From the IMG/VR virus record IMGVR_UViG_3300025319_000008, positions 1 through 42,432 of that record: a stretch of DNA of 42,432 nucleotides, one strand, 5' to 3'. The position numbers were made by a program, and so were the translations under genes. Of this stretch, positions 2,877-20,332 are shown one piece after another. Source of the stretch: a virus. Under the pieces are notes generated by a model, which had not been told where the DNA came from, did not search any database, and saw only the letters and a list, made by a program, of their open reading frames with translations. Each line of letters starts with the position of its first letter. Positions within the stretch are counted from its first letter, which is position 1.

Positions 2877-3194
2877 ATGAATGATTTCGAAAAACACTAT
2901 ATGAATTTTCCATATTGTTGCTATCCTAAAGAATTATATTATAGAACTGTTTTAATCGAAAAGTTCAAAAAAGATAGGAATAATACAATAATGAGCTGTT
3001 GTGTCATTAATGGAGTGTCTGTTTTTAAAGACCCTACACAAAAAGAAAATGAATTTAGAATTGGAACGAATGGTATGGCAAATAATTATCTTGTTTCTGG
3101 TAATGATACAATATCAATAAAAACAGATAGCTCATTAATCCAGAAGTTAACAAATGCTATAGAAACTTATAAAAATCCAGAAATAGTAAAATGA
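2877..3194 (+). CDS. Unknown small phage protein with RxVLIEK motif
   Basis: No family is recognised. The 105-residue product carries RTVLIEK at residues 23-29, the motif shared by a dozen small proteins here. The part after the motif (SCCVINGVSVFKDP, later TDSSLIQKLTNAI) resembles the gene at 3580-3885 (FCCWINDVPVYTDS, TDSTIMQTVSKLI), so the two are probably paralogs. It is the first plus-strand gene after the TnpB element and overlaps the next gene by 4 nt (ATGA). No signal peptide or membrane segment is evident. Confidence 0.7.
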   Translation: MNDFEKHYMNFPYCCYPKELYYRTVLIEKFKKDRNNTIMSCCVINGVSVFKDPTQKENEFRIGTNGMANNYLVSGNDTISIKTDSSLIQKLTNAIETYKNPEIVK

Positions 3195-3583
3195 ATGAGT
3201 TTAAAATTATAAAATTTCCAATAACAAGAATAGTTTTAGTTGAAAAAAGAATTAAAACTGTAAATCAAATGAAACAATTTTTAAAACAAGAATTTAGTGA
3301 GTGTTCTTTTTATAGATATTGCAAAGATGAACAAATTATTTTTTATACAAAAAATAATTTCACATTATTAGAAATTAAAATTGATGGTGTTTGTGCTTTT
3401 TTAAATGCTGATTACACAAAAAATTATGAAATAATTAAACATGATTTAATTATGAGACAAGAAATTAGGGATTTTATTTTTAAAGATTTGTTTAGATTCG
3501 AAAATTACTCAGAGTGTTTTATTGACTTTTATGGATGTTCTGGATATGCATTTGTGGTTAGTAATAGTCTTGAAATTTCATGA
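3191..3583 (+). CDS. Unknown small phage protein with RxVLVEK motif
   Basis: No family is recognised. The 130-residue product has RIVLVEK at residues 13-19 right after ITR. It overlaps both neighbours by 4 nt, so the three small genes from 2877 to 3885 form one translationally coupled set. The spacing ITR-motif-charged helix and a later IIFYTKNNFTLLEIKIDG stretch resemble the layout of the 10881-11228 product (FITR, ILYKRNSLILFRHDIEIG), suggesting a distant paralog pair. Function unknown. Confidence 0.7.
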   Translation: MNEFKIIKFPITRIVLVEKRIKTVNQMKQFLKQEFSECSFYRYCKDEQIIFYTKNNFTLLEIKIDGVCAFLNADYTKNYEIIKHDLIMRQEIRDFIFKDLFRFENYSECFIDFYGCSGYAFVVSNSLEIS

Positions 3584-3885
3584 AAAAACTAAAAAGATTA
3601 TATATTCCTCAATGTGACAATGATTTAAATGTTAGAGTCTTGTTGTTTGAAAAATATAAACCAAAATTATATGGACTAAATTTTTGTTGTTGGATAAATG
3701 ATGTTCCTGTTTATACAGATAGTACATCTGGAAAATTAGGTGTTTTTTCTGGAAGTCAAGGCGATTTGTCTGGGGATAGAATTAGAAAAAGTATAACATT
3801 TCTTATAGTTGGATTTGAACCGGAGGAAATATTAACAGATAGTACCATAATGCAAACTGTTTCTAAGTTGATAGTAGATGTGTAA
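3580..3885 (+). CDS. Unknown small phage protein, paralog of the 2877-3194 gene
   Basis: The 101-residue product has RVLLFEK at residues 19-25, followed by a region related to the 2877-3194 product (CCWINDVPVYTD here, CCVINGVSVFKD there), and a similar C-terminal helix after TDST. It ends 7 nt before the convergent homing cassette at 3892. No catalytic motif or membrane segment is visible. Confidence 0.7.
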   Translation: MKKLKRLYIPQCDNDLNVRVLLFEKYKPKLYGLNFCCWINDVPVYTDSTSGKLGVFSGSQGDLSGDRIRKSITFLIVGFEPEEILTDSTIMQTVSKLIVDV

Positions 3886-3891
3886 ATAACA

Positions 3892-4956
3892 TTAGTTTTC
3901 TGCGTATTTCCAAATGAAACCTCCGGCTGTTTTATATTTCGGTTTTCCTGAACAAACTTTTGGAATTGCAGTACGACTAGCTTTCGTGTTTTTTGAAGCT
4001 TCTGAAATTGAGTTCCAAATGTTTAATATTATACCATCTTTTGTTAGTTGAATTACTTTTTTACTTTTCTGTTTTGCTTTATTTTTTGCATATTCTACTG
4101 TTTCTAAATCTAAATTTTTTATTTCTTCTCCTGATTTGTAATATTTCCAAATAAATCCTCCGGCTGTTTTACTTACTTTTTTACCACATGTTCTATTTGC
4201 ACAAACATCACTTATTTGATTTGAGCCTATATTTAATGTATTAACTATTTCCACTATTGAATTCCATGTTTTAATAAATATTCCTTCAATTGAAAATTGA
4301 TTAATTTTTTTCCAAGTAGATGGGTCGGATGATTTTTCTAAATTAACAGAAATATCTCCATCTGTAAAGTATTTCCAAATAAAACCGCCAGCTATTTTTG
4401 CATTTCTGTAATTAGAACAAACAGAAACAATAGAACTAGTTGCTATTCCTAATGAAATAGAAGCTTCTGTTAATGAATTCCATGTTTTAATAACCTCTCC
4501 ATTTTTTGAAATTTGGTTTACTTTTCTTTTTACTGGTGACTTATTTGTTTTGTTTTTTGTAAATTCTACATTTTTGTATTTCCACATGAATCCACCAGCA
4601 GTTTTATGATTGATTTCATCAGAGCAAACTCTACTTATTGAACTTCTGTCTATTTTTATTGTTTTAGATGCTTCCTCTATTGATTCCCACTCTTTAATAA
4701 AATTCCCTTCTTTAGAAAGTTGAATAACCGCACACACATAGCGAAGGTTTTCTGTTAATTTTAATATTAATTCATCATCTAATTTATTTGGAATTATACC
4801 ATTTTCAAATTCTTCTTTGTAAAACCAAAAACATCCGTTTGATGTTTTTGTAAATTTAGTTAAACATTCATATATTCCTCTTTTATCAAAAAAAGCTTCA
4901 GCGTAACAAACATCACTCCACTCTTTAGAGAAACTTCCGTCAATATCAAATTGCAC
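3892..4956 (-). CDS. NUMOD1-repeat DNA-binding part of a GIY-YIG homing endonuclease
   Basis: Four clear copies and one degenerate N-terminal copy of a module of about 50 residues follow each other. Each reads as xIQ-x-x-x-x-G-x-FIKxW-NSIxEAS, a helix-turn-helix ending VCS, then KTAGGFIWKY. This is the NUMOD1/IENR1 DNA-binding module of phage homing endonucleases. The frame stays open upstream of the GTG at 4954-4956 through NRHKEIVQFD and meets the GIY-YIG frame at the GGGG run (4994-4997 on the + strand). One base there would fuse the two ORFs into a standard GIY-YIG-NUMOD protein. The GTG start is therefore probably artificial. Confidence 0.85.
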   Translation of the reverse strand: MQFDIDGSFSKEWSDVCYAEAFFDKRGIYECLTKFTKTSNGCFWFYKEEFENGIIPNKLDDELILKLTENLRYVCAVIQLSKEGNFIKEWESIEEASKTIKIDRSSISRVCSDEINHKTAGGFMWKYKNVEFTKNKTNKSPVKRKVNQISKNGEVIKTWNSLTEASISLGIATSSIVSVCSNYRNAKIAGGFIWKYFTDGDISVNLEKSSDPSTWKKINQFSIEGIFIKTWNSIVEIVNTLNIGSNQISDVCANRTCGKKVSKTAGGFIWKYYKSGEEIKNLDLETVEYAKNKAKQKSKKVIQLTKDGIILNIWNSISEASKNTKASRTAIPKVCSGKPKYKTAGGFIWKYAEN

Positions 4957-4981
4957 AATTTCCTTATGTCTGTTTTTATTT

Positions 4982-5359
4982 TTAGAAATTGCTCCCCTTT
5001 CTAAATTTATTAGTTAATGGGCCTGTTTTGTTGTTTATTTTACCTATAGCATCAATATATTTTGTTTCTGTTTTTAAGGCATTTTTTTCTGATAAATTAG
5101 AATTTAAAATTGAAATTAATGGTTTTGTGTTTTCTTTTTTCATCTCTTGTATGATTGCGTACTTTTCTTTGTTCTCATCACAACAATCGCACATGTGTTC
5201 AGAAACTCTTCTCCCACAACCTTTTCCGACATAAAATGGTTCATAATCAAATGAATATTCTCTATAGATATATTTTCCTGGCTTTCTTGGGTCAAGATAT
5301 ATATAAACATAAAATATATTTTCTTCTTTATATTTTTCTATTAAAACCTTATTTTCCAT
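4982..5359 (-). CDS. GIY-YIG nuclease domain of a homing endonuclease (frameshifted from its NUMOD tail)
   Basis: The GIY-YIG core is visible as YVYIYLDP (first strand), then PFYVGKGCGRRVSEH, with the Arg and Glu positions expected downstream. The protein begins MENKVLIEKYKEE before the nuclease fold. This extension contains VLIEK, the peptide that recurs in small phage proteins on the other strand. The start overlaps the end of the RHH gene by 11 nt, so translation is probably coupled. The ORF ends at TAA just after a GGGG run, where the frame of the NUMOD1 repeats takes over. As drawn it lacks specific DNA binding. It is a selfish gene inserted between plus-strand phage genes. Confidence 0.85.
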   Translation of the reverse strand: MENKVLIEKYKEENIFYVYIYLDPRKPGKYIYREYSFDYEPFYVGKGCGRRVSEHMCDCCDENKEKYAIIQEMKKENTKPLISILNSNLSEKNALKTETKYIDAIGKINNKTGPLTNKFRKGSNF

Positions 5360-5492: not shown

Positions 5493-5520
5493 TTTTATGT
5501 GTTTAAGTGTTTGTGTGTTA

Positions 5521-5575: not shown

Positions 5576-5598
5576 TCGAGTAACAAATAATCATAAAA

Positions 5599-5633: not shown

Positions 5634-8600
5634 ATGTCAAAAAATCATCTGGCGCATTTATCAGATTTTCATGTGCGCTACAACAGCCGTCAAGAAGAAT
5701 ATAAAATTGTTTTAAATAGAACAATTGATGATTTAAAATCAATTAAACCAAGAAGAATTGTTCTGGCTGGTGATTTATTTCATACAAAAATAAATATGTC
5801 TCCAACTTCAGTGTCAATTGTTGGAGATTTTTTAAGTAGACTTAGTGAAATTTCTCCGACTGATATTTTAATAGGTAATCACGATTGTTCCCTAACTTCA
5901 TTATCACAAGGAGATAGTATAACGCCAATTATTGAACTTTTGCCCAATGGTTATATTATAACAAAAGAAAATCCAGAATTACCAATTCCAAAAAACCACG
6001 CTCATGGAATTTATTACTTTAAGGAATCTGGATTTTATAATGTTGATGATGAGATTATCTATGGCGTGTATTCTATGTTAGACAATGAAATTTTATCATT
6101 AACCAAAAAAGAAAAAGGTAAAAAATATATAGCTTTATATCATGGTCCAGTTTTTGGTGCCCAGATGGATAATGGGTATGAAGCTGCTGGTGACTCATTA
6201 ATTAAACCATCAGTTTTTAATGGGTTTTCGGCTGCGCTACTTGGCGATTTTCATACTTTTCAGGTCATTCAAGAATATGATGAAGAGAAGCAAAAACCAG
6301 CTATAATTTTTCCAGGCAGCTTAATTCAACAGAATTTTGGAGAATCCATAGACAAAGGTTATGTGTTGTGGGATTTGGATAATTTTTCACACGAACGTCG
6401 CTTCATATTAAACGATTACGGTTACTGCAGGCTTAATATATATAAAGGTGAAATTTGGGAAGACAGGATTCAAGATTTAAAATTCTCTTTAAACAAAAAG
6501 AAAACAAAAATTGAAATTATCATTCATGATGATAAAGAAAACTACTCAGTAGAAAAACTTAGCCAGATTGAAAAGTACATAAAAGATCGTCACGGTTGTG
6601 AATCCGTTAGCGCAGACTTTCAATCAATAGATAGAGAAATTGGAGACAGCACAGAATTAAACGAAGAAGAAATTGATGTTAACAACACAGAAAGTGCTGA
6701 AAAGCTATTAACAGAATACTTAACACAGAACAATTATGATAACACAGAAGATGTTATTGAACTAAGTCGTGAGATTGATAATAAATTAAGCATAAAGCAA
6801 AATCCTACTCATGGAATGCGAATAGATTTTAACAGCATGGAAGTGAGTAATTTATTATCTTTCCCTGTAGCCCCGGTATTTTTTGATTTTGATAGACTGA
6901 GTGGGCTCACGGGGGTGCTCGGTCCTAATTATAATGGGAAATCCAATGTAATGAAAGTTTTTTGTTTTATTTTGTATGGAAAAATGCCGGGGGATTTTGA
7001 AAATTCAAAACTGATTAATTTATACACCAACGTAACAAAAGGATGGGGTAAAATCCACTTTACAATCGCAGGAGTTAAATATTATGCTCATAGAGGAGTT
7101 ACTGTTAAGAGGAAAAAAGATGGAACTCCAGATGTAAGCTATCAAATTGAATATAAAAAACAAATACACTTTATAAATGAACTTACGAATGAAAGTGAAT
7201 TAAAGTGGGTTGATGTAGAATCAGAAAAAGCTGCAACTGAAAAAGGGGAAAAGAAAAAACTTATTACTGATTACATAGGAACATATGAAGACTTTATGGT
7301 TTGTGCTATGCAAACAAACGATCAAAATTATTTAAGTTTGGCTCAACAACCGAAGAATGACCTTATTAATAAATTTTTAGGATTAGAAGTGTATCGCGAT
7401 AAATATGATCTTGGAAATGATATTTTTAAAACTATTAAAGCTCGCCAAAAAGTATTGGGAGACCCAGCTGAACTCGAAACTCAAATAAATGATTTTAAGA
7501 CAAAATTATTATTGGAAAAAGATTCATTAGAAAAACATCAGAAAGAGAAGGGTGAAAACAATAAGAAAATTGATGAATTTAATGATGATATTAATAAATT
7601 AACTGAGAAACTTCATAAAATTGAAGTTCCTGCAGAAACAAATGTTGAAAACATAGAAGTGAGTATTGCTTCATTAAAGACTGATATTGGAAATGGAATT
7701 ATAATATCTAAAGAAAAAGAATCATGGTTAAAAGATAATTTTAAAAAGGATTTGAGTGAAGAATTAAAATCCTTGGACATAAGTTCCATAAAAGAAACAA
7801 ATGTCGAAGTATTAAAATCTAATATCGAAAAGGCTAAAGTTACTATTGAAGAATATGGAATTAAGATAAAAGAAAAAGAAGAATGGTTAGGATTAAACTT
7901 TAAAAAAGATTTAAGTGACGAATTAAAAGATTTGGATATAAGCTCTATAAAAGAGAAAAATGTTGATGTGTTGAAATCTAACATTGAAAAAGTCAAAATT
8001 TCTATTGAAATTGCGAAATCCAAATCCAAAACCATAGAAGAGTGGTTAGAAAAAAACTTTAAAAAAGAGATTAGCGAAAATTTAAAAAATCTTGATAAAG
8101 TCAAAGTGGAAAAGGAATTAAATCTGGAAAAATCCACCTTTGATTCTGAAAAGAAAGAATATGTAGCAATTGAAAACTGGCTTAAAGAAAATGAAGTTAG
8201 AGTAGTTGTAAAACAGGAACCTGTTGAAGATAAGATTGCTAACTGTAAATTTGCTCTTTCTGGTTTGTCAGAAAAGTTAAAAATAGCTAAGGGAGAAAAA
8301 TGTCCGACGTGTAACCACGTTAGTCATGAGGCAAATCCGGAAGCAGAAAAGAAATGCATTAATGATATTGAAAGAGGAAATAAAACTTTAAAAGAACTGC
8401 AGGATGAGCTTGCTAAAATTAAAACTGATAATGAACACAATGCGAAGCATGAGAAAGAAACAAATAAGCTTAGTTCATTAAAGATAAGTCTTCAGGCAAG
8501 GCAAAAAAACATGCTTTCTTTAAAAAGTGACCTTGAACTTTCTTCTCAAAAAGATGAATTTGTAATTCATAATAAAAAAATTGATGATGAAGCAACTGCA

Positions 8601-9695
8601 GTTAAGGAAATCAAAACCTTGATTCTTTTAAAAGAAGAAGAAATTGCTAAATTGAGTGGTTATATTGATTCTATTGAAAAGCATGCTAAAAAAGAGGATA
8701 TACTTAAACACAATAAAGGTATTGATGATGAGATTTCTTCTGTTAAGGAATTTAAAAATTCAATAACATCAAAAGAGGAAGAAATTGTTCAATTGACTAA
8801 TAATATTGATTCTATTGAGAAGTATTCAAAAAAGAAAGAGATTGTTTTGCATAACCAAAAAGTTGATGATGAAACTTTATCTTTAACTAATGCTAAAAAT
8901 TCAATAACGGAAAAAGAGAAAGAAATTGTTATATTGGAAGAGCAAATTAAGACTCTTGAAAAAAATAAAACTCTTGTTCTTGAAAATACAGCAACAAATG
9001 AATTAATTAAAAACAAAAAGGAAGAAATCAATGTTTACAAAGTTATGAACTTACAAGTTGATACAAAAATAAAAGAAAGTTCTGGAAACATAGGTGCTGG
9101 AGATAATAATATTGAAAATTTAAGTGAAAAACTTGAGTCTATTAGAGATACAGACAGAGTTTATAAAAAATATTCTGTTTACCTTCAAGCTGTTGGTCGC
9201 GATGGAATACCGGCAATGATTATCAAAAAGAAATTGCCGATAATAAACCATAAAATAAACTCTCTTCTTAAAAGTATGGTTGCATTTAAAGTAGAAATGA
9301 CTATAAATATAAAAGGGGATGTTAAGGAAATTTTTTATTTCAGCGACAATAAAATGGATTCATTACCAATTGGAAGTGGTTCTGGTTCTATTAAGTTTAT
9401 AACAAGTACGGCAATAAGCGATTCATTACATTTTGTAAGCTCTCTTATAAAGCCAAGTTTGAAGGTGATAGATGAGGGTTTTGATACATTATCTTCTAAG
9501 AAACTCGAAGAATTGGGAGGAATGTTTAATTATTTGAGAACAAAATATAAAAACATATTCATTGTAACTCACAAGAGTGAAGTAAGGGATTATGTTGACA
9601 ACATCATAGAAGTAGAAAAAACCAAAGATGGAATTACTGACCCGGAAGTTTTAGCAAATCCGGAAGCTGGTATATCAAAATTCGTTTATTCTTAA
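5634..9695 (+). CDS. Fused SbcD-SbcC (Mre11-Rad50) recombination nuclease/ATPase
   Basis: One 1353-residue chain joins the two subunits that are normally separate (T4 gp47 and gp46). The N-terminal phosphoesterase has SDFH (D11, H13), GDLFH (46-50), GNHD (81-84), YHGP (H170) and GDFH (204-207), covering the Mn-binding motifs. The ATPase follows, with Walker A GPNYNGKS (430-437), a long coiled coil, a zinc hook CPTC (C890, C893), a GSGSGS signature and Walker B VIDE (1278-1281). The complex resects and processes DNA ends for recombination-dependent replication. Both coiled-coil arms contain internal duplications: about 53-residue units before the hook and about 47-residue units after it. It is the first gene of the plus-strand operon. 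Confidence 0.93.
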   Translation: MSKNHLAHLSDFHVRYNSRQEEYKIVLNRTIDDLKSIKPRRIVLAGDLFHTKINMSPTSVSIVGDFLSRLSEISPTDILIGNHDCSLTSLSQGDSITPIIELLPNGYIITKENPELPIPKNHAHGIYYFKESGFYNVDDEIIYGVYSMLDNEILSLTKKEKGKKYIALYHGPVFGAQMDNGYEAAGDSLIKPSVFNGFSAALLGDFHTFQVIQEYDEEKQKPAIIFPGSLIQQNFGESIDKGYVLWDLDNFSHERRFILNDYGYCRLNIYKGEIWEDRIQDLKFSLNKKKTKIEIIIHDDKENYSVEKLSQIEKYIKDRHGCESVSADFQSIDREIGDSTELNEEEIDVNNTESAEKLLTEYLTQNNYDNTEDVIELSREIDNKLSIKQNPTHGMRIDFNSMEVSNLLSFPVAPVFFDFDRLSGLTGVLGPNYNGKSNVMKVFCFILYGKMPGDFENSKLINLYTNVTKGWGKIHFTIAGVKYYAHRGVTVKRKKDGTPDVSYQIEYKKQIHFINELTNESELKWVDVESEKAATEKGEKKKLITDYIGTYEDFMVCAMQTNDQNYLSLAQQPKNDLINKFLGLEVYRDKYDLGNDIFKTIKARQKVLGDPAELETQINDFKTKLLLEKDSLEKHQKEKGENNKKIDEFNDDINKLTEKLHKIEVPAETNVENIEVSIASLKTDIGNGIIISKEKESWLKDNFKKDLSEELKSLDISSIKETNVEVLKSNIEKAKVTIEEYGIKIKEKEEWLGLNFKKDLSDELKDLDISSIKEKNVDVLKSNIEKVKISIEIAKSKSKTIEEWLEKNFKKEISENLKNLDKVKVEKELNLEKSTFDSEKKEYVAIENWLKENEVRVVVKQEPVEDKIANCKFALSGLSEKLKIAKGEKCPTCNHVSHEANPEAEKKCINDIERGNKTLKELQDELAKIKTDNEHNAKHEKETNKLSSLKISLQARQKNMLSLKSDLELSSQKDEFVIHNKKIDDEATAVKEIKTLILLKEEEIAKLSGYIDSIEKHAKKEDILKHNKGIDDEISSVKEFKNSITSKEEEIVQLTNNIDSIEKYSKKKEIVLHNQKVDDETLSLTNAKNSITEKEKEIVILEEQIKTLEKNKTLVLENTATNELIKNKKEEINVYKVMNLQVDTKIKESSGNIGAGDNNIENLSEKLESIRDTDRVYKKYSVYLQAVGRDGIPAMIIKKKLPIINHKINSLLKSMVAFKVEMTINIKGDVKEIFYFSDNKMDSLPIGSGSGSIKFITSTAISDSLHFVSSLIKPSLKVIDEGFDTLSSKKLEELGGMFNYLRTKYKNIFIVTHKSEVRDYVDNIIEVEKTKDGITDPEVLANPEAGISKFVYS

Positions 9696-9705: not shown

Positions 9706-10080
9706 ATGGATAAAGATATTTTAATAGAAATTTTTAAAAATAAAGCATGTAGTAATGTAGATTCTATTCCTAAAGATTATTGCCGTGGATATGGATTCGA
9801 TTTTTGGTATAATTCTGATTTAGTTGATATACGTATTTTTCAAGAAGAAAATAAGTATCATATCCAATACGAGAGTATATCATTTAAAATTACAAAATCT
9901 GAATATGTTGAACTTTTTTTATTATATGACATAAAAAAGAAATGTGTGGATAAAATAATTGAAGAAGAAAAAAGACAAACTCATATTAAAAACAGCAATT
10001 CTTTAACGGAAATATATCAACAAATTATTTGCCAAAAAAGAAAAGTATTAATTGAAAAAAATATAACAAATGAAAATTAA
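9706..10080 (+). CDS. Unknown protein ending in an RKVLIEK tail
   Basis: A 124-residue protein with no recognised family. The first two thirds look like a small alpha/beta domain. The C-terminal helix is rich in charged residues and ends RKVLIEK (112-118) six residues before the stop. The same motif is N-terminal in other small genes. It overlaps the start of the NIF3-like gene by 11 nt. Confidence 0.65.
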   Translation: MDKDILIEIFKNKACSNVDSIPKDYCRGYGFDFWYNSDLVDIRIFQEENKYHIQYESISFKITKSEYVELFLLYDIKKKCVDKIIEEEKRQTHIKNSNSLTEIYQQIICQKRKVLIEKNITNEN

Positions 10081-10747
10081 AGATTTAGCAGAAAAATTGG
10101 ATTATTGGATTATTCCAAAGAAACATCAAGAAAGTTATGATAATTGCGGTTTAATAGTCGGCTCTGGAGAAAAAACAATAACAGGAATATTAACGACTTT
10201 AGATGTCACAGAAGAAGTTGTTTTGGAAGCTGAAAAATTGGGCTGTAATTTAATTATTTCGCATCATCCAATTATTTTTTTCGCAATAAAAAGCATGGTT
10301 GATAATAACTCTAATCAAAAAACGATTATGTTGGCAATTTCTAAAGGTATTTCAATTTATGCTGCTCACACGTCATTGGATAATAGATTTACCGGAGGTA
10401 TAAATGAAACGCTTGCACAAAAAATTGGATTACAAAACATAACTCCATTTAAAAAATTAAAAACAGAACTTCCTGGTTGGTCTGATGATATAATTATGGG
10501 AAGTGGCGCCATAGGTTATTTATCAGAACCAAAACCTGTCATAGATTTTCTTTATGATTTAAGAAAGACAATAGATATAAGTTGCCCTATAAAATATAGT
10601 TTCATTAAAAAAAATATCCAAATATCAAAATTGCTTTGTGTTCAGGCGCTGGATTATTTATGGCAGAAGAAGCTAAGAAGTTGGGTGCCGAATTGTTTAT
10701 TACTTCTGACATTACGTATCATGGTTTCTTTGATGAAAAAGATATAA
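10070..10747 (+). CDS. NIF3-like protein (DUF34), N-terminal portion before a frameshift
   Basis: This is the NIF3 family, metal-binding proteins of poorly defined role often linked to GTP cyclohydrolase-like folds. Visible are SYDNCGLIVG, the metal-site ISHHPIIF, and YAAHTSLDN. After IKKN near 10610 the frame leaves the family: the C-terminal part (ALCSGAG, SDITYHGFFD, ADIGHY) is in the next frame. The switch lies at an A8 run (about 10608-10616), where one extra A restores a protein of about 270 residues from 10070 to 10881. Residues after that run in this ORF are not native. Confidence 0.85.
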   Translation: MKIKDLAEKLDYWIIPKKHQESYDNCGLIVGSGEKTITGILTTLDVTEEVVLEAEKLGCNLIISHHPIIFFAIKSMVDNNSNQKTIMLAISKGISIYAAHTSLDNRFTGGINETLAQKIGLQNITPFKKLKTELPGWSDDIIMGSGAIGYLSEPKPVIDFLYDLRKTIDISCPIKYSFIKKNIQISKLLCVQALDYLWQKKLRSWVPNCLLLLTLRIMVSLMKKI

Positions 10748-10881
10748 TTTTAGCAGACATTGGACATTATGATTCTGAAAAGCATGCACCGGAAGTTATT
10801 TCTAATATCCTTCAAAATTTAGATATTAAGAATGTCTATATATCGAAAGTTAATATGAATCCAGTATCTAGTATTGGTTAA
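10636..10881 (+). CDS. NIF3-like protein, C-terminal portion (out of frame)
   Basis: The frame carries the second half of the NIF3 metal site: CSGAGLFMAEEAKKLGAE, SDITYHGFFD and ILADIGHYDSEK. It is open upstream to the A8 run, where it should join the preceding ORF. The ATG at 10636 is internal and unlikely to be a real start. Its last base is the first base of the next gene's ATG. Confidence 0.75.
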   Translation: MCSGAGLFMAEEAKKLGAELFITSDITYHGFFDEKDIILADIGHYDSEKHAPEVISNILQNLDIKNVYISKVNMNPVSSIG

Positions 10882-11228
10882 TGAAAGTTGAATTATTCAT
10901 AACAAGAAAAGTTCTGTTTGAAAAACACTCAATTAAAAATGATGTGGAGGGTTTTATAATATCTTATCTTGAGGATTGTGAAGTTGAATTTATTAAATTA
11001 AAAAAAATTATTTTATATAAAAGAAATAGCTTAATTTTGTTTAGGCACGATATTGAAATTGGATATTTTTATATTAACTATTATTTAATATGGTCTCACA
11101 TTTTGTTTTTATTAAATACAAAAGGAATACAGAATGTCGATTTCATTGATGAAATAATTAAAATGAATCTAATGATAACATTTTTTGAAGTTAGGGGATT
11201 GATAGGAATTGACGTTGGAATTTGTTAA
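10881..11228 (+). CDS. Unknown small protein with RKVLFEK motif
   Basis: A 115-residue protein with RKVLFEK at residues 9-15 directly after FIT. The middle is rich in Ile, Leu, Tyr and Phe (YFYINYYLIWSHILFLL) and might be a membrane segment or a buried core. It shares its layout with the 3191-3583 product. It starts on the last base of the NIF3 frame. Function unknown. Confidence 0.65.
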   Translation: MKVELFITRKVLFEKHSIKNDVEGFIISYLEDCEVEFIKLKKIILYKRNSLILFRHDIEIGYFYINYYLIWSHILFLLNTKGIQNVDFIDEIIKMNLMITFFEVRGLIGIDVGIC

Positions 11229-11235: not shown

Positions 11236-12672
11236 ATGGAAGAAGAGTTGTCTATAAAAGAAGTAGAAAGAACCGGTGAACAATTAGCGTTCATACAATC
11301 TCCAATTAAAGGTGTTGAAGCTAAATCGATAATACTCTCCGCAGTTGCGGGATCAGGAAAAACCAGTTGCGCCGTTGCTCGTTTGAAGTTTTTGCTTGAA
11401 AATGGCGTTGACCCTTCTAAAATAATTTTCTTTTCATTTACCGTTGCTGCTGTGGAAGAATTGAAAAGCAGAGTCCAAAACGAAAAAATAAAAATAACTA
11501 CTATTCACGCATTTTGTGTTCATTTATTGTCAAGAATGAAGAAAATGAAAACCATTTCTACATTTTATGATTTTATAGATTGGTTCAAAGAATATCATAA
11601 ACCAAAAGAAAATTCACAACAAAGTGATATTGAAATTTTTTATGCTGATGTTGAGAAACTCTATGATACTGCAGAGTATTTAAGTTCTCAAATTTCTGCA
11701 TTTAAACTTCAAATTGCTGACAATATAAAATGTAAGGAACCAGATTATTTAACCGCTTATCAAGATTATCAAAAACAGACAAAATCGATGGATTTTTCTG
11801 ATATGCTTATTTTGGTTAGAGAGTCGTTAAAAGAGGATAAGTGGTTAAGAATGTTTAGGAATCAGTATGACTTTATAATGATTGATGAGTATCAAGATAA
11901 TAGCTCTATAATGATGTCTATTTTATTGAGTTTAAATGCTAAGTATTATTATTTAATGGGCGATAGATCACAAGCTATTTTCGGCTATTCTAATGCTAAT
12001 TGTGACGCTGTGGAAGCTATGCTAAGGAGAAGAAGGCAAACTGTAGATATGCATTTGTCTATAAATTTTAGAAGTGCAACATCAATTGTCGAAAATTCAA
12101 ACAAACATTCTAATTTACAGGCAATACCATTTCATAAGGAAAAAGGAAATGTCCACAGAAAACTTATAACATTTGAACATCTGGTTGAAATATTAAAAGA
12201 AAATCCATATGTAGCTGTGTTGGTTAGAACGAATGCCGTTATTCGGGAAATTGAAAAAAGATTATTGATATTAAAAATTCCTATTCGTTATGAGAATTAT
12301 CTAAAATCAGCCGAATTAGAAGATATTACAAAAGGAGAAGAAAGAGTGAGTACTAAAAACAAAATGAGAGAACTTTTACCACATTTTGGAACTATAGATG
12401 CTGTGATAGAATTTATAAATTCAAATAAAAATAAACAGTCTCACCTCCGAAGTGTGCATCGCAGTAAAGGTCTAGAATACCCATCTTGCGTAGTTGTAAA
12501 TTCGATCTCTCCAGATATTCTTAAAGAAAACAATATTACACTATCAAAAGAACGTGTGGCTCTTATTTCTTATGACCCAGAAGAATGTGAGGATTTGGAG
12601 CCAAAAAACGTTCATTATGTGGCAGTGACAAGATCAAAAAATTCTCTTTTTTTCATGTTAATTGATAATTAA
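11236..12672 (+). CDS. UvrD/PcrA-like SF1 DNA helicase (compact phage form)
   Basis: Superfamily 1 motifs are in order: Q-motif GEQLAFI, Walker A AVAGSGKT, FSFTVAAVEEL (Ia), TIHAF, DEYQD (II), GDRSQAIFGY (III), NFRS (IV), SVHRSKGLEYPSCV (V) and YVAVTRSKNSLF (VI). At about 478 residues it is far shorter than UvrD (about 720), leaving little room for the 1B and 2B subdomains, as in small phage helicases. I prefer the ATG at 11236 (MEEELS) because the earlier one at 11209 lies inside the preceding gene. It probably works in phage replication or repair with the SbcDC fusion. Confidence 0.9.
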   Translation: MEEELSIKEVERTGEQLAFIQSPIKGVEAKSIILSAVAGSGKTSCAVARLKFLLENGVDPSKIIFFSFTVAAVEELKSRVQNEKIKITTIHAFCVHLLSRMKKMKTISTFYDFIDWFKEYHKPKENSQQSDIEIFYADVEKLYDTAEYLSSQISAFKLQIADNIKCKEPDYLTAYQDYQKQTKSMDFSDMLILVRESLKEDKWLRMFRNQYDFIMIDEYQDNSSIMMSILLSLNAKYYYLMGDRSQAIFGYSNANCDAVEAMLRRRRQTVDMHLSINFRSATSIVENSNKHSNLQAIPFHKEKGNVHRKLITFEHLVEILKENPYVAVLVRTNAVIREIEKRLLILKIPIRYENYLKSAELEDITKGEERVSTKNKMRELLPHFGTIDAVIEFINSNKNKQSHLRSVHRSKGLEYPSCVVVNSISPDILKENNITLSKERVALISYDPEECEDLEPKNVHYVAVTRSKNSLFFMLIDN

Positions 12673-12677: not shown

Positions 12678-13088
12678 ATGGCAGGAGAACACAAAATAAG
12701 CTGGCATTATAAAATATATTTTTTTATAATTTCCTTTTTGATTCAATTATATTGTTTGCTGTTATATTTTTTTATAAACCATAGAATTTTTTCTGTTAAA
12801 ATTAGAATAAAAATTACTGAATTTATTGCTCAAAAAATCGATAATCAAATTGATTTTGTGCAAAGAAGAAAATTTTGGAACGGTGCACAAAAAGTTCATT
12901 ATACTTTTTTTATTGATTATATTTTGGAAAAAAATAAACTTTCACTCAATATTAGTTATGAAGATAGTGATGCTGTAAAGTTGGAGCGATACTTAAAACA
13001 CGTTTTGCTCGCATATAAAAATTATCTATTGATTGATAAACACGAATTTACATCAAGCGTTTTAATTGAAAAAATAAGCAACAAATAA
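12678..13088 (+). CDS. Unknown protein with N-terminal membrane segment and VLIEK tail
   Basis: A 136-residue protein. Residues about 12-36 (KIYFFIISFLIQLYCLLLYFF) form one strongly hydrophobic stretch, most likely a membrane anchor. The rest is soluble and basic. Near the C-terminus it reads SSVLIEK (126-132), a variant of the recurring motif with Ser in place of Arg, four residues before the end. It starts 5 nt after the helicase gene. No family recognised. Confidence 0.65.
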   Translation: MAGEHKISWHYKIYFFIISFLIQLYCLLLYFFINHRIFSVKIRIKITEFIAQKIDNQIDFVQRRKFWNGAQKVHYTFFIDYILEKNKLSLNISYEDSDAVKLERYLKHVLLAYKNYLLIDKHEFTSSVLIEKISNK

Positions 13089-13761: not shown

Positions 13762-14955
13762 ATGGCAATCAAATCACTTTTAGAATTAGATTATTACAAA
13801 AAAACAATGCAACAATTTGCTTGGAAGAAATTTCCAAATGAACATGTTAAATATGCTTTTAAAAATCGTACAAAAAACGTAACTCTCGGTCATTTAAAAT
13901 ACCAGTTAATTCAAGAAATTGATAGAATTAAAAAAATAGAGCTGTCTGATATTGAAATTTTATTTTTGAAAATACAAACTATATTTTCTGATGATTACTT
14001 GCAATTCTTAAAAAGAGTAAAGTTGCCGGACGTGAATATAGACGTAGATAAAAATAATGAGCTCATTATTGAAACAGAAGGATTGTGGTCAGAAGCTATT
14101 GATTGGGAAACCATTATACTTAGTACAGTAAATGAATTATATTATAAAACTGATAAGGATTCTGAAAAAAATGCCTGGAAAATAGGAGAAGAAAGATTAC
14201 TAAACAAAATACAATTACTTAAACAACATCCCGATTTACGTTTTGTTGACTTTGGTACCAGAAGGGCGTATTCTACAGAGTGGCATAAGCGTGTTGTTGA
14301 AATATTGTTAAATGAAATTCCAACTCAGTTATACGGCACATCAAATGTTTATTTAGCAAACTTGTTTGGAGTAAAAAACATAGGTACAAGCGCACATGAG
14401 TGCCCGATGATACTTTCAAGACTCTTTGGAAATACTGATGACAACATAAGAGACTCTCAAAATAAATTTTATGATATGTGGTATGAAATGTATGGAGAAA
14501 ATTTATCAATATGTCTTCCTGACACATTTGGAAGCGATTATACATTTTCTACATTTGGAAAAGAAAGATTTGAGAAATGGAAAGGTTTTAGACAAGACTC
14601 TGGAGATCCAACAGAATCTGCATTGAAACAATTGAAAAAATACGAAGACTTTAACATTGATGCGACAAATAAATTATTCATGCCGAGCGATGGATTGACT
14701 GTTGAAAAAATGATTGATTTGCATACTAAATTTAAATCAAAAATTCTGGTATTGCCTGCTATTGGTACTTCTCTTACAAATGATGTTGGAGCGTCTCCTA
14801 TAAGCATTGTAATGAAGGCTGTTGAGGTAAATCATATGGGATTAGTAAAAATGAGCGATAATACAGGTAAGTTTACCGGTAAAACAGAAGACATTGAGAG
14901 ATTTAAGAAAATATTCAATTATGAGAATACGAGTTCTCAAGAAATAATATTTTAA
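13762..14955 (+). CDS. pncB: Nicotinate phosphoribosyltransferase
   Basis: PncB makes nicotinate mononucleotide from nicotinate and PRPP, the entry step of the Preiss-Handler route to NAD. Family marks are FGTRRAYS (164-171), YGTSNVYLA (191-199), GTSAHE with the phosphorylated His (H212), and FRQDSGDP (276-283). The length (397) is like E. coli PncB (about 400). With NadE at 33.3 kb it supplies two of the three steps; no NadD-type adenylyltransferase is seen in the window. Its supply of NAD may serve the phage LigA or offset NAD-depleting defences (inference). Confidence 0.93.
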   Translation: MAIKSLLELDYYKKTMQQFAWKKFPNEHVKYAFKNRTKNVTLGHLKYQLIQEIDRIKKIELSDIEILFLKIQTIFSDDYLQFLKRVKLPDVNIDVDKNNELIIETEGLWSEAIDWETIILSTVNELYYKTDKDSEKNAWKIGEERLLNKIQLLKQHPDLRFVDFGTRRAYSTEWHKRVVEILLNEIPTQLYGTSNVYLANLFGVKNIGTSAHECPMILSRLFGNTDDNIRDSQNKFYDMWYEMYGENLSICLPDTFGSDYTFSTFGKERFEKWKGFRQDSGDPTESALKQLKKYEDFNIDATNKLFMPSDGLTVEKMIDLHTKFKSKILVLPAIGTSLTNDVGASPISIVMKAVEVNHMGLVKMSDNTGKFTGKTEDIERFKKIFNYENTSSQEIIF

Positions 14956-15273
14956 ATGACGCCTCCAATTATAAATCTTGATGAGCTAAAAGCGAAAATG
15001 TGCCAAGTTAACCCTGCTGATTTTATGTCTGGTACATTAATATCAGAAATTTTTAAAACATCTACTGATTTTAAAATAAAATTACTAAATACAAAAGATA
15101 GTATAAATGGCAGAGAAACAGCAGGTGATAAAATTATAAAGTTAACATTTATATGGAATGGGCATCCTTATGAACGAATTGATGGAAGTCAAATTTGGTT
15201 TATGGATGTTGAAGAATATTTTAGAATGAATACCAGATTTGTCATAGTTGAGAAAAAACAAAAATTAGAATGA
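14956..15273 (+). CDS. Unknown protein ending in an RFVIVEK tail
   Basis: A 105-residue protein directly abutting pncB and overlapping the next frame by 4 nt (ATGA). It ends RFVIVEKKQKLE, with RFVIVEK at residues 94-100, a C-terminal version of the motif common to small proteins in this region. No family recognised; probably soluble. Confidence 0.65.
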   Translation: MTPPIINLDELKAKMCQVNPADFMSGTLISEIFKTSTDFKIKLLNTKDSINGRETAGDKIIKLTFIWNGHPYERIDGSQIWFMDVEEYFRMNTRFVIVEKKQKLE

Positions 15274-15623
15274 AAAAAGAAGTTATTGAAACGATGAAAC
15301 AATATAGTTTTATCAAGGATTAATTATATAAAGAATTTTATATAACCAGTGAGGAAGATTGTGGTACATTTGGTGTCCAAACAGATACTGAAAATGAAGG
15401 ATTTGAAAGAGCTGTTTTTAATAAATTTAAATCTATTGGTGTTATGGGAGAAAACGGACCAATGAATCACATAGGAGAACGAGCATCTTTTAGAATATAT
15501 TATCATAATAATGGTCTCGTAGAACTGTTGTTCGAAAATAACGGTTACGTTGATGAAGTTAAAGATTTCAAACATTTGATGTATTTGCTTGACCCTAAAA
15601 ATTTAGATTTACAAACAAAATGA
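15270..15623 (+). pseudogene. Unknown gene interrupted by an in-frame TAA at codon 18
   Basis: The frame starts with an ATGA overlap (15270), runs 17 codons, meets TAA at 15321-15323, then stays open without a frame change to TGA at 15621-15623, which overlaps the rtcB start by ATGA. The part after the stop (YKEFYITSEEDCGTFGVQ, then FRIYYHNNGLVELLFENNGY) reads as a normal soluble domain and has no start codon near its beginning. Both ends keep phage-style overlaps, so this was one 117-codon gene. It is a nonsense mutation, readthrough, or a consensus error. No family recognised. Confidence 0.65.
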
Positions 15624-16993
15624 AAATGATAACAGGAAACGATTTAATACAAATGGGATTTGAACGTGGAAAATGGTTTGGAATAGCCATTGAACACATT
15701 AATACAAATGATTTGTCCGGAGATGCTATGATGTCGTATATTGATACCGTAAAGCCTCCACCACCACTTCCGGTTATTTCTTTACATGCTGAACCTGTTA
15801 AGTATTTTTTAAATATAACAGCAGAAACAGAATTGGAAAAAGAGAACGTGAAAAAGGTTTGCGAAAGTATGGATATATTAATGAGAACTCCTGTTGTTGT
15901 GGGCGGTTGTGTTATGCCAGATGCTTGCCCGACAGGTGTTGGACATATTCCGGTAGGAGGAATTGCAATTGTTAAAAACGCAGTAGTTCCTAATTTCCAC
16001 TCTGCAGACATTTGTTGTTCTCTTATGCTTACGAACATTGGTAAAGTTGATCCGAAATTAGTTTTGGATACTGCCATGAAATTTGCACATTTTGGAGCCG
16101 GAGGACGTCCTCGCGAAACTCAATTTAGATTACCACAAGAAATTTTGACAGAGATTGAATTAAATCCATTTTTGAACTCAGAACATAGTATCAGTATAGC
16201 AAGAAGCCATCTGGGAACGAGCGGGGACGGGAATCACTTCATTTTTTGTGGCGTTTCTAAGAAAACGGGTGATACAATTATAGTTTCACATTATGGTTCC
16301 AGGGGTTTTGGCGCAGCTTTGTATAAAACAGGAATGAAAGTGGCTGAAAATTTCAGAAAGAAATTATCCCCAGAAACGCCATCTATGAATGCCTGGATTC
16401 CATTTGATACAACAGAAGGCGAGAATTATTGGAATGCATTACAAACCGTTCGTAAGTGGACAAAACAAAATCATATTTGTATTCATAACAAAATAGCTGA
16501 AGGTTTAAATACTGAAATCAAAGACAGATTTTGGAATGAACATAATTTCGTATTTAAAGATGGCGATTTGTTTTATCATGCTAAAGGTGCAACACCTATG
16601 AATTCTAAATTTATGCCTGATATTACCGGACCAAGAATTATTCCTTTGAATATGAGTCAACCAATTTTAATTGTTGAAGGCGGTAATAATGAACATGGTT
16701 TAGGTTTCGCTCCACACGGAGCCGGAAGAAATCTAAGTAGGACCCAACACAAAAAAGAAAAAGGTGATAAATCTATACAAGATATTTTCACAGAAGAAAC
16801 TCAAGGGATTGATGCAAGATTTTTCTCTGGCAAAATTGATATTTCTGAATTGCCAAGTGCGTATAAAAATGCTGAAGAAGTGAAGAAACAAATTATAGAA
16901 TTTGATCTTGCTACAATTATTGATGAAATAACTCCAGTAGGATGTATTATGGCTGGCCACATAGAAAATAATTGGAGAAAAAAGAAAAAATAA
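15620..16993 (+). CDS. rtcB: RtcB-type RNA ligase
   Basis: RtcB joins RNA ends bearing 2',3'-cyclic phosphate and 5'-OH, using GTP and Mn. Matching sites are D130 with C132/C133 (SADICCS), H206 (GTSGDGNHF), H224 (SHYGSRGFG), H289 (CIHNKIAEG) and the guanylated His, H366, in APHGAGRNLSRTQ. At MPDACPTG the sequence differs from the common MPDAHQG, so this is a divergent subgroup. Length is 457 residues. In a phage it could repair tRNAs cut by host anticodon nucleases. A CCA-adding enzyme and a tRNA-binding protein are encoded elsewhere in the window. Confidence 0.92.
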   Translation: MKMITGNDLIQMGFERGKWFGIAIEHINTNDLSGDAMMSYIDTVKPPPPLPVISLHAEPVKYFLNITAETELEKENVKKVCESMDILMRTPVVVGGCVMPDACPTGVGHIPVGGIAIVKNAVVPNFHSADICCSLMLTNIGKVDPKLVLDTAMKFAHFGAGGRPRETQFRLPQEILTEIELNPFLNSEHSISIARSHLGTSGDGNHFIFCGVSKKTGDTIIVSHYGSRGFGAALYKTGMKVAENFRKKLSPETPSMNAWIPFDTTEGENYWNALQTVRKWTKQNHICIHNKIAEGLNTEIKDRFWNEHNFVFKDGDLFYHAKGATPMNSKFMPDITGPRIIPLNMSQPILIVEGGNNEHGLGFAPHGAGRNLSRTQHKKEKGDKSIQDIFTEETQGIDARFFSGKIDISELPSAYKNAEEVKKQIIEFDLATIIDEITPVGCIMAGHIENNWRKKKK

Positions 16994-16994
16994 T

Positions 16995-17393
16995 ATGCTA
17001 TTCCTTAAAAACAAAAGAGACAGACATGTTCTTTTCGAAAAGAAAGGATGGCACTCAGTTGAAATGAAATTAATTTATTTAGGAAAGTATATTAATACTT
17101 GCAAGGAACAGAATATTGAAAGTGAAGACGAATTTGGATTTGATGTGACAATAATATACAAAGAAACAAGCTGGATAAGCAGAGCATCTAAAATTAAAAT
17201 ATATAATGAAAAACTTTTCAATTGCACTCAAGTACATTATGGGTATACGGAAATTGGAACAGTTGATTTAATAACTAAAATAGCATTTGAAAGCGATATA
17301 CATAGCACTGGATTTAATAGAGAAATAAGTGATATTGAAAGTGTTAAAATAACATTATCAAATGAAATGCATGCTGATTACCATAGAATATGA
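16995..17393 (+). CDS. Unknown small protein with RHVLFEK motif
   Basis: A 132-residue protein starting one base after the rtcB stop. It has a basic N-terminus and RHVLFEK at residues 10-16. The rest looks like a mixed alpha/beta domain (FGFDVTIIYKETSW, GTVDLITKIAF). It overlaps the next gene by 4 nt. No family recognised. Confidence 0.65.
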   Translation: MLFLKNKRDRHVLFEKKGWHSVEMKLIYLGKYINTCKEQNIESEDEFGFDVTIIYKETSWISRASKIKIYNEKLFNCTQVHYGYTEIGTVDLITKIAFESDIHSTGFNREISDIESVKITLSNEMHADYHRI

Positions 17394-17737
17394 ATCTTAT
17401 TAAAACAAATACTGCAACCAGATTAGTTTTGTTTGAAAAAACTCAACCTGATGAAAGGATGAAATTTTATAATTCAATAATAGAATCACAAGAAGATGGT
17501 CTATTAAATAATTATGCTATTGAAAGTTTGATTAAAATGACTATTAGTGAGGTTTGTAAAAAAAGAAATCTTATTGGCGGTTTTATAAATAAAGATACTT
17601 TTGGTAATTTAATTCATTCTGCTCTCGAATTTTCAATGAAACATTTCAATAAATATAGGGATGACAAAAACCCAGAAAAATGTTATAAATATTTTTTAAC
17701 CTTAATTAATCATAATATAAATGCTAACCTTCAGTAA
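17390..17737 (+). CDS. Unknown small protein with RLVLFEK motif
   Basis: A 115-residue, mainly helical protein with RLVLFEK at residues 11-17 after a Thr/Asn-rich start. It overlaps the gene before by 4 nt and the BtpA-like gene after by 17 nt. No family recognised. Confidence 0.65.
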   Translation: MNLIKTNTATRLVLFEKTQPDERMKFYNSIIESQEDGLLNNYAIESLIKMTISEVCKKRNLIGGFINKDTFGNLIHSALEFSMKHFNKYRDDKNPEKCYKYFLTLINHNINANLQ

Positions 17738-18425
17738 TAAACCAATATTAGGAATGGTTCACCTTGCCGGTGATAATCCACACGAAAGAGCTTTAGAAGA
17801 AGCTGAAATGATGTTAAGCGAAGGAGTGGATGGTATCATCGTTGAAAACTATCATGGAAGTGTCGAGGATGTAAGACGTACATTGCTTCACCTGAAAGAT
17901 TGTGGTGGAATATTAGGATTAAATATATTACCAAATGAATTTGAATTAGCTTTCGAATTAGCACAAGAATTTAATGCCAGTTTCATTCAATTAGATTATG
18001 TTGCCGGTAAATATAACCGAGCGTCAACATTTGATATAGAAAGGTTTCTTAAAATAAAAGCAAGTCATTCTTCTGATATTAAAGTTCTTGGAGGGATTCA
18101 TCCTAAATATTACGAGCCAGTAAAAGGTTCTATTTTAAAAGATGATATTGAGGAAGGTATGACATTGGCAAGTGCAATAGTCGTTACCGGCTCCGGTACC
18201 GGTTCAGAAACTCCAATGCAGAAAATAAAGGAATTTAGAAACATTATGGGTGAATATCCGTTAATAATAGGAGCTGGTTTAAATCCTTCAAATGTAGTTG
18301 AACAATTATCAATTGCAGATGGTGGTATCGTAGGCAGTTGTTTTAAGCCCTATGGCAGAACACAAGAAAAAATTGAAAGAAGTCTTGTTAAAGAATTTAT
18401 GGATGAAGTTAAAAAAATAAGATAA
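17721..18425 (+). CDS. BtpA/SgcQ-family TIM-barrel protein
   Basis: A 234-residue TIM barrel of the BtpA family. Visible marks are ILGMVHLAGD at the first strand, EGVDGIIVENYHG, LGLNILPNE, FIQLDYVAG, AIVVTGSGTGSETP, PLIIGAGLNPSN and ADGGIVGSCFKPYG. BtpA was named for photosystem I accumulation in cyanobacteria, and SgcQ is an E. coli relative. The reaction is not established, though the C-terminal phosphate-binding pattern suggests a phosphorylated sugar or nucleotide substrate. A phage copy beside rtcB and denV is unexpected. Confidence 0.85.
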   Translation: MLTFSNKPILGMVHLAGDNPHERALEEAEMMLSEGVDGIIVENYHGSVEDVRRTLLHLKDCGGILGLNILPNEFELAFELAQEFNASFIQLDYVAGKYNRASTFDIERFLKIKASHSSDIKVLGGIHPKYYEPVKGSILKDDIEEGMTLASAIVVTGSGTGSETPMQKIKEFRNIMGEYPLIIGAGLNPSNVVEQLSIADGGIVGSCFKPYGRTQEKIERSLVKEFMDEVKKIR

Positions 18426-18427
18426 AT

Positions 18428-19055: not shown

Positions 19056-19059
19056 TATT

Positions 19060-19185
19060 ATGAGCTGGTTTCAATTAGGTAACATAAACACGAAAGAGCG
19101 TAAAAAGATTAAAGGAATCTGGCTAAGAAAACGACCAGGATGTAATCTTGATGTTGAAGAAGCTATTAAAAAAGCAAAAATCTGA
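19060..19185 (+). CDS. Unknown short ORF, probably the N-terminal part of a frameshifted gene
   Basis: 41 codons, starting MSWFQLGNINTKERKK and ending KKAKI at a TGA. One additional A in the A5 run at 19176-19180 would carry the frame into the ORF at 19200-19379, which has no ATG of its own, giving one protein of about 100 residues. Confidence 0.5.
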   Translation: MSWFQLGNINTKERKKIKGIWLRKRPGCNLDVEEAIKKAKI

Positions 19186-19199
19186 GGTTCACTGAGGTT

Positions 19200-19379
19200 G
19201 TGTGGAAAATTGAAATAGTTGAACTTAGAAAAAATAATCAGGTTTTATTGGAGGTTTGGGCTCAAAGTGCTTTTGATTCTATAGCTGGAAAGGAAAGACA
19301 TAATGTTTTTCATATACTGATTAATCAAAACCCAGAATGGATTTGTGAAGGTGATTTAGGAAAAGGATATAAAATGTAA
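19200..19379 (+). CDS. Unknown ORF without ATG, probable C-terminal part of the 19060 gene
   Basis: The frame is open from 19170 to the TAA at 19377 and contains no ATG except its last codon. A GTG at 19200 is the only plausible start. The product (VVWKIEIVELRKNNQVLLEV, then HVFHILINQ-like strands) looks like a real small beta-rich domain. Joining to the preceding ORF by one base is the simpler explanation. Confidence 0.4.
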   Translation: MWKIEIVELRKNNQVLLEVWAQSAFDSIAGKERHNVFHILINQNPEWICEGDLGKGYKM

Positions 19380-19382
19380 AAA

Positions 19383-19901
19383 ATGACAGAACCCGATGAT
19401 GAAAATAAGAGTTTAAATGAAGCTAATAAGATTTTTAAGAGCATGCCTAGTGTGTCTAATAAAACAAACAACGTATACTGTAGAAAAGTTTTAATTGAAA
19501 AATGTCGTAGAGGAAGAGAAATGTCTGAAAAGTTTTTAAGAAGAACGGACGTTTTTTATCCAGACATTCACAATACGCTTGATAGAAAAGAAACTCAAAT
19601 TGAACATGAATTAGTTTCAATATTTGAGAAATTACAAATACAAGCTTCAACAAAAACAGATAAACGCTCACTACCATATAACAATGTTATAGTTTCTCGT
19701 TTAATGCTTGAGACAGATGTTTCTGCTATGTTTGATTCAAAAAGAATATACAGAAAAATAATATCAGAATTACTTACTAAAGACATATACAGAATAAGAT
19801 TTTATATTCACATAGAAACTTACGAAGACAATTCAAATATGATGGCAAAAATACTTGGAATGTGTGGTTTAAAGTATTGTTTTAGATATTATGTTCCTTA
19901 A
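19383..19901 (+). CDS. Unknown 172-residue protein with RKVLIEK motif
   Basis: No family recognised. An acidic, unstructured N-terminus of about 30 residues leads to RKVLIEK (34-40), then a helical region (IEHELVSIFEKLQIQ) and a compact domain ending in GLKYCFRYYVP. The position of the motif, just after a low-complexity leader, is like that in other small proteins here. Confidence 0.65.
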   Translation: MTEPDDENKSLNEANKIFKSMPSVSNKTNNVYCRKVLIEKCRRGREMSEKFLRRTDVFYPDIHNTLDRKETQIEHELVSIFEKLQIQASTKTDKRSLPYNNVIVSRLMLETDVSAMFDSKRIYRKIISELLTKDIYRIRFYIHIETYEDNSNMMAKILGMCGLKYCFRYYVP

Positions 19902-19912
19902 AAAAATAACAA

Positions 19913-20086
19913 ATGAAAAATAAAATTAGAATACCTCGCAAATTAAAGAAACAATTTCATTTTGAATTTAAATGCAAAGTATCATGTTTTTTAAATGACA
20001 TTCGTGAGCCAATTAGTAAGCATGGTAAATACGTATTTTTTGTTGGCTCATGCGAAATTCCTAAACCTAAACAAAATTATGCATAA
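19913..20086 (+). CDS. Unknown 57-residue basic protein
   Basis: A short, strongly basic protein (MKNKIRIPRKLKKQFHFEFK) with two Cys in KCKVSCF and a later SCEIPKP. It fills the gap between its neighbours and is followed at once by a promoter-like box. No family recognised. Confidence 0.5.
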   Translation: MKNKIRIPRKLKKQFHFEFKCKVSCFLNDIREPISKHGKYVFFVGSCEIPKPKQNYA

Positions 20087-20101
20087 ATGATAAATTTTTT
20101 C

Positions 20102-20109
20102 TATCTTTG
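20102..20109 (+). promoter_or_regulatory. Bacteroidota-type promoter, -7 box TATCTTTG
   Basis: TATCTTTGC fits TAnnTTTG exactly. The ATG of the next gene is only 7 nt downstream of the box (20117), close to where transcription should begin, so the message may be leaderless. The -33 element is not obvious. Confidence 0.55.
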
Positions 20110-20116
20110 CAAAACA

Positions 20117-20332
20117 ATGGACGAAATTTTCGAATTTAATTCTGATTCAACTCATGGCAATATTAAATTTAAAAAAATTACAACTACATCTCCAGAAACA
20201 TGGCAAATGTATAATCCGGATTTTAAAAAATGGGTCAAAGTTGAATACAGTACTGCTTTAAGTTATTTTAATCTTTTGATACAAAAAAGACAAGTTTTAA
20301 TTGAAAAAAAAGGAAATGGCACCAAAAAATAA
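20117..20332 (+). CDS. Unknown 71-residue protein with RQVLIEK tail
   Basis: Starts at the ATG just after the promoter box; an upstream in-frame ATG at 20087 precedes the box and is less likely. It contains an aromatic stretch (TWQMYNPDFKKWVKVEY) and ends QKRQVLIEKKGNGTKK, resembling the C-terminal QKRKVLIEK of the 9706-10080 product. It overlaps the CYTH gene by 17 nt. Confidence 0.6.
   Translation: MDEIFEFNSDSTHGNIKFKKITTTSPETWQMYNPDFKKWVKVEYSTALSYFNLLIQKRQVLIEKKGNGTKK

Follow-up and report, generated by a model that had tools for sequence, protein, structure and literature searches.

A recurrent short peptide on small, mostly unrelated accessory proteins in one clade of T4-like phages

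Results

The stretch of DNA analysed here (the window) comprises bases 1 to 42,432 of the 106,432-base virus record IMGVR_UViG_3300025319_000008, referred to below as G000, the remainder of which was read as pieces L002 to L005. Small proteins encoded in the window repeatedly carry a short peptide, which we call the tag and describe by the working motif R-x-[VI]-[LI]-[IFVMT]-E-K; the counts below depend on the pattern used, and freeing single positions gave the same picture. An earlier note on this DNA had listed twelve such peptides, and all twelve were found at their positions and in frame with their open reading frames (ORFs; Table 1). The strict form R-x-V-L-[IFV]-E-K occurs in 8 of 61 window ORFs, against an expectation of 0.002 from shuffling (no more than 1 in any of 2000 shuffles), and the loose core [VIL][LI][IFV]EK in 12, against 0.9. 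ORFs were called by length and overlap, and the untagged set may include false ones. The earlier note's statement that no tag lies beyond 20.3 kb is correct for the in-frame ORFs of the window; further along the genome, however, tags reappear at 54.4 kb and are closely spaced between 77 and 106 kb. A further match, RNVLFEK at window 29150-29170, lies in an 18-codon frame that overlaps ORF 29145-29393 out of frame, and is either chance or a relic.

Table 1. Tags in the window, and other features of the tagged phages with their coordinates
Feature	Location	Strand	Context
Tag RTVLIEK	2943-2963	+	N-terminal part, ORF 2877-3194
Tag RIVLVEK	3227-3247	+	N-terminal part, ORF 3191-3583
Variant tag RVLLFEK	3634-3654	+	N-terminal part, ORF 3580-3885
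Variant tag NKVLIEK	5333-5353	-	Residues 3-9, ORF 4982-5359; LEM-3-like GIY-YIG domain (residues 17-108) follows
Tag RKVLIEK	10039-10059	+	C-terminal end, ORF 9706-10080
Tag RKVLFEK	10905-10925	+	N-terminal, ORF 10881-11228; member of tagged family F, also found in G001
Variant tag SSVLIEK	13053-13073	+	C-terminal end, ORF 12678-13088
Tag RFVIVEK	15235-15255	+	C-terminal end, ORF 14956-15273
Tag RHVLFEK	17022-17042	+	N-terminal, ORF 16995-17393
Tag RLVLFEK	17420-17440	+	N-terminal, ORF 17390-17737
Tag RKVLIEK	19482-19502	+	Residue 34, ORF 19383-19901
Tag RQVLIEK	20288-20308	+	C-terminal end, ORF 20087-20332
CRISPR-like mini-array	L003:13072-13310 (record 73072-73310)		
CRISPR-like mini-array	L065:19294-19528		
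CRISPR-like mini-arrays	L057:11634-11924, 12231-12530, 15254-15499		
CRISPR-like mini-array	L266:9734-9969		
Array-linked tagged gene	L003:12698-13144 vs L065:18920-19522		80% identical pair
Small LexA-type S24 peptidase-like protein	window 31014-31304 vs L065:4395-4715		80% identical pair
Ribbon-helix-helix-like + endonuclease-like pair	window 36788-37910		
Ribbon-helix-helix-like + endonuclease-like pair	L003:764-2078		
Ribbon-helix-helix-like + endonuclease-like pair	L003:16486-17753		
Ribbon-helix-helix-like + endonuclease-like pair	L004:17263-18487		

Across G000, 31 of 174 ORFs carry the working motif and none carries it reversed. The strict form is present in 22 proteins, whereas shuffled proteins predict 0.0085, and no five-residue words are commoner in the proteome than VLIEK and VLFEK. 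Composition-matched shuffles, which had been proposed as a check, thus do not yield the motif, and we reject a chance origin, since both the shuffled-protein and the reversed-motif counts lie far below those observed.

When one position was left free at a time, R was found in 119 peptides, V in 117, and L or I in 95 and 24 of 123, while the residue before E was F (39), I (36), T (22), V (17) or M (4). E was present in all 119 cases and K in 119, with single strays. On the flanks, the position before the tag is 11-fold enriched in T and the one behind it 4- to 5-fold in Y or F; the consensus is [T/E/K]-R-x-V-[L/I]-[I/F/T/V/M]-E-K, with Y or F as a frequent next residue.

The tag codons of G000 match the usage of the genome, and the identity among tag DNAs is that of randomly recoded peptide (0.708 versus 0.702 +/- 0.014 in G000; 0.667 versus 0.688 +/- 0.009 in the distant relative G001). 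Selection therefore acts at the peptide level, as the earlier note had proposed from the varied codons. The codon and recoding tests show no extra nucleotide conservation, on which ground we reject a promoter, RNA element or recent DNA repeat. Separately, the Arg and Val codons of the G001 tags (L057:5956-18402) show more variety than the codon usage of the genome (p 0.004 and 0.01), as if the repeats were being held dissimilar so that they do not recombine.

The tag is also more strongly constrained than the proteins that carry it. Between the related phages L086 and L088, synonymous (pS) and nonsynonymous (pN) divergence are 0.51 and 0.064 in tag codons, 0.40 and 0.186 in the remainder of the same proteins, and 0.47 and 0.070 in untagged genes; the tag therefore changes at one third of the rate seen elsewhere in its carriers. 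Six of the fifteen invariant columns of family F come from the tag. Loss of the motif in otherwise conserved orthologues had been named as a refutation: the block PLTRKVL[IF]EK is retained among orthologues as little as 33% identical, but there is one partial loss, since a tail-tube-like protein is tagged in the 40-kb relative G002 (L068:2004-2510) and untagged in its 41% identical L086 relative (L086:10771-11271). Tags can thus be lost or moved; in L086, the ORF directly upstream of the untagged gene bears a tag.

The 114 tagged proteins are small (median 116 aa, maximum 272). Counting 35 residues from the N-terminus as one end and 25 from the C-terminus as the other, 51 tags fall at the first and 45 at the second, with one in both; the other 19 are internal. 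The description of the motif as terminal therefore stands as a bias beyond chance (95 of 114 at an end, against 65 expected and a maximum of 83 in 5000 trials) but not as a rule. No family profile covers the tag, and all matched stretches lie outside it, as in the GIY-YIG protein of Table 1, in DUF6501 (domain residues 3-51, tag 81-87), terminase (24-181, tag 210-216), a LAGLIDADG endonuclease (1-204, tag 217-223), a head-maturation-protease match (52-151, tag 19-25) and tail tube (70-167, tag 11-17). Structure models of family F and of a tagged LAGLIDADG protein were too poor to place the tag, and a comparison of folds with the PDB returned no significant match.

Comparison of gene order with untagged relatives indicates that the tagged ORFs have been inserted among conserved genes. 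In the untagged L089, the portal gene is followed by genes for 74, 97 and 275 aa and two sigma factors, whereas in the tagged L086 and L088 three motif ORFs separate the matching 71-aa and 79/80-aa genes. Likewise, a gene of 102/105 aa directly precedes terminase in L089 and L102, whereas one tagged ORF of 158-159 aa is inserted there in L087, L088 and the 8.9-kb fragment G003, its content in G003 differing from that in the others. The tagged cassettes are inserted within same-strand runs of head genes.

The tag is specific to one clade within a T4-like phage group, all tagged records being metagenomic fragments. A scan of 2.9 million viral contigs with the exact pattern recovered copies of G000 (L032, L033, L046) together with G001 (212 kb; 58 tagged ORFs, most in one single-strand run of ~12 kb), G002 (11 of 52 ORFs tagged; from the same sample as one G000 copy) and G003, and viral contig matches to the narrower pattern TR[KE]VL[IF]EK[FY] were confined to this group. 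The G003 portal retrieved 80 relatives, among which the motif exceeds its reversed control in the closest ones only. In the portal tree, the tagged phages form one supported clade (95/95), whose sole member without a seen tag is a 6.7-kb fragment (L093); the rows L037, L076 and L077, unlabelled there, are further copies of tagged G002 and G003. The nearest untagged phages, G008 and G013 (portals ~60% identical), carry the tag in none of their 317 and 89 ORFs, and the tag was absent from the 50-kb stretches read of the nearest named phages, Flavobacterium phage immuto and Microcystis phage Mel-JY01 (portals 37-41% identical). No other recurrent tag was seen in the untagged relatives. A bacterial origin was rejected, as the bacterial matches to one strict pattern in ~85,000 genomes were Bacteroidetes MtaB methylthiotransferases and one nucleosidase, which we read as coincidence. 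A literature search did not find the motif reported.

As the earlier note had remarked, the tagged proteins are mostly unalike: no family is common to the set and most match nothing. We therefore reject a shared protein family. Where a PHROG scan of 76 tagged proteins gave a stated function, it was major head protein (3), terminase, head maturation protease, tail tube, tail fibre and one endonuclease, a lean towards morphogenesis that rests on fewer than 10 proteins. Each capsid match covers a part of the protein (residues 17-106, a middle piece or the C-terminal 50), and in L068:9828-10454 the capsid sequence is interrupted and resumes past RIVLFEK. Direct comparison also gives a match to portal residues 268-313, and tagged portal pieces are about as similar to the phage's own portal as to other portals. 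The tagged proteins of known family are mostly cut-down virion-assembly proteins. Among tagged ORFs as a whole, membrane-like proteins are rare (2 of 116 versus 41 of 424, p 0.003, in a comparison set that may hold false ORFs), and PADLOC found no convincing defence-system proteins.

Discussion

Our work describes a selected, modular and position-tolerant peptide, which lies outside recognised domains, at a terminus or between modules, on small, mostly soluble, inserted accessory proteins. The statistics, the selection at the peptide level, the slow change of the tag and its retention at 33% identity strongly support the proposal that these proteins share a functional peptide with one partner, and it is from them that we infer this partner. 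We give close to an even chance to the general idea that the tag is a position-independent address label, fused to captured accessory proteins (capsid, portal, terminase and tail pieces, homing nucleases), with one partner handling the whole set of dozens per genome. That, more specifically, head assembly reads it as an uncleaved tag for cargo or docking is our tentative choice, with a chance somewhat short of even. The partner binding the tag would then most likely be head-assembly machinery, whether scaffold, core or a protein bound to them, and would load tagged proteins into or onto the assembling head; once loaded, they could act on assembly, or enter the next cell with the DNA like the internal proteins of T4. 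We favour the head-assembly core because the cassettes lie in runs of head genes, because the recognised families are mostly morphogenetic and the carriers small and mostly soluble, and because the RK-[VI]-L-x-E core resembles N-terminal head-type signals of the same phages. The full-length capsid gene of the tagged phages was not found in the contigs examined, nor were intact scaffold and protease genes seen there.

The closest known parallel is the T4 capsid-targeting sequence (CTS), an N-terminal propeptide of 10-20 residues that is removed by the head protease (PMC5694885). Like the CTS of T4 internal proteins and Alt, the tag is a short conserved peptide that small accessory proteins of a T4-like phage have in common although they are unrelated in other respects, and it has the [LI]-x-E core; unlike the CTS, it may be N-terminal, C-terminal or internal, has an invariant K after the E, and occurs on about one sixth of the ORFs of G000. 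If read at head assembly, the tag would be an uncleaved, position-independent counterpart of the CTS. The genomes of this group also encode ordinary head-type signals ([IL]RK[IVL]LxE, LSExxKxRLxxLAG), whose R-K-[VI]-L-x-E core is near the tag but which are found in the first ~20 residues only, mainly on larger proteins without a tag, and are mostly followed by E, S, N or A and rarely by K. The ADP-ribosyltransferase-like (ART-PolyVal) protein encoded at L002:4013-5176 (record 44013-45176), reminiscent of T4 Alt, has such an N-terminal signal, IRKILFES. A short terminal signal also sends the accessory protein DarB of phage P1 to the capsid (PMC9024508), although that signal is N-terminal and described for one protein, whereas the tag recurs on dozens.

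Several observations weigh against reading at head assembly. The tags are often C-terminal or internal, which a CTS is not. The residue after E is K in 119 of 119 tags but in 5 of 71 ordinary N-terminal [LI]xE head signals from the same and related phages (p about 1e-45), and the likeness of the cores may therefore be superficial. In addition, proteins that bear ordinary head signals lack the tag, the tail-tube-like protein has a relative lacking it, and homing-type endonucleases, for which packaging is not required, are tagged as well.

Alternatively, the tag may dock accessory proteins outside the virion, on a replication or transcription body, a host enzyme, a chaperone or an unfoldase, giving them a shared place or on/off control during infection. 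We consider this possible, although rather unlikely. The strict E-K, the free position and the mixed cargo, which includes nucleases, DUF6501-like proteins and many without a match, suit a general docking peptide, but the recognised cargo leans to morphogenesis. Moreover, one candidate partner, a phage ClpA-like unfoldase, is also present in untagged relatives, for which reason we rejected it as a tag-specific partner.

The earlier note had also suggested cleavage by a T4-type head protease, which would free N- or C-terminal pieces by cutting after Glu, as such proteases do (PMC5694885). In its favour, nearly all tags fit [LI]-x-E, with I as the only common substitute for L. The idea is nevertheless weakened to an improbable one: K always comes next, in contrast to ordinary head signals, a large share of tags are C-terminal or internal, many are so near the C-terminus (1 to 7 residues away) that cutting there would hardly shorten the protein, and the invariant R and V are not accounted for by cleavage on its own.

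It is a little more doubtful still that the tagged proteins are an interference kit, in which truncated capsid, portal, terminase, protease and tail decoys, brought by the tag to the assembly site or head, would spoil the assembly of competitors. Partial copies of morphogenesis proteins are indeed found repeatedly among the tagged phages, in several of them, and some occupy the same junction in the genome, but most tagged proteins match nothing and the portal pieces are about equally close to own and other portals. Finally, a relic or selfish insertion, spread through small ORFs and now functionless, might explain tags at ORF ends and at the joints of chimeric ORFs, as well as nearest relatives without tagged cassettes, but is very improbable, as the peptide, including E and K, shows no drift and changes more slowly than its flanks, and the random-recoding level of identity among tag DNAs means that any spread is old.

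If the label loads heads, it would list the injected set of a phage from sequence alone and might offer a handle for phage-based protein delivery; if it docks elsewhere, it would mark a so far unknown infection hub of large T4-like phages. Either way, one motif makes dozens of uncharacterised small proteins testable as a single class.

Other features of the tagged phages

Mini-arrays resembling clustered regularly interspaced short palindromic repeats (CRISPR) lie each directly 3' of a tagged family-F gene (Table 1), with repeats of ~36 nt and unique spacers of 30-31 nt. We take the repeat to recall those of type VI-B (Cas13b) systems. It has no match in Rfam, its pattern was found in no bacterial genome searched, and the spacers have no target in 3.3 Mb of loci. 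G000 and G001 share two proteins that are 80% identical, while few others match at all, and these two suggest recent exchange between the phages.

Several further genes were assigned by eye. A 1353-aa ORF at window 5634-9695 looks like a fusion of Mre11/SbcD-like nuclease and Rad50/SbcC-like ATPase, and a Nif3-like gene at 10070-10881 is apparently split by a frameshift into two overlapping ORFs. Nicotinamide phosphoribosyltransferase-like (13762-14955), Nudix-like (26232-26756) and nicotinamide adenine dinucleotide (NAD)-synthase-like (33279-35135) genes are possibly a set for rebuilding NAD. At the left end of the record, window 187-2551 contains ORFs resembling an insertion-sequence-type transposase and TnpB, and a LAGLIDADG-endonuclease-like ORF at L002:6931-8289 (record 46931-48289) continues into a dUTPase-like part.

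A pair that recurs (Table 1) consists of a small ribbon-helix-helix-looking protein and, after it, an endonuclease-like ORF in which a KAKxIHGxKYDYS-type motif is repeated. The portal and terminase genes of G002 (L068:10914-15431 and 15485-18391) contain large intein-like in-frame insertions.

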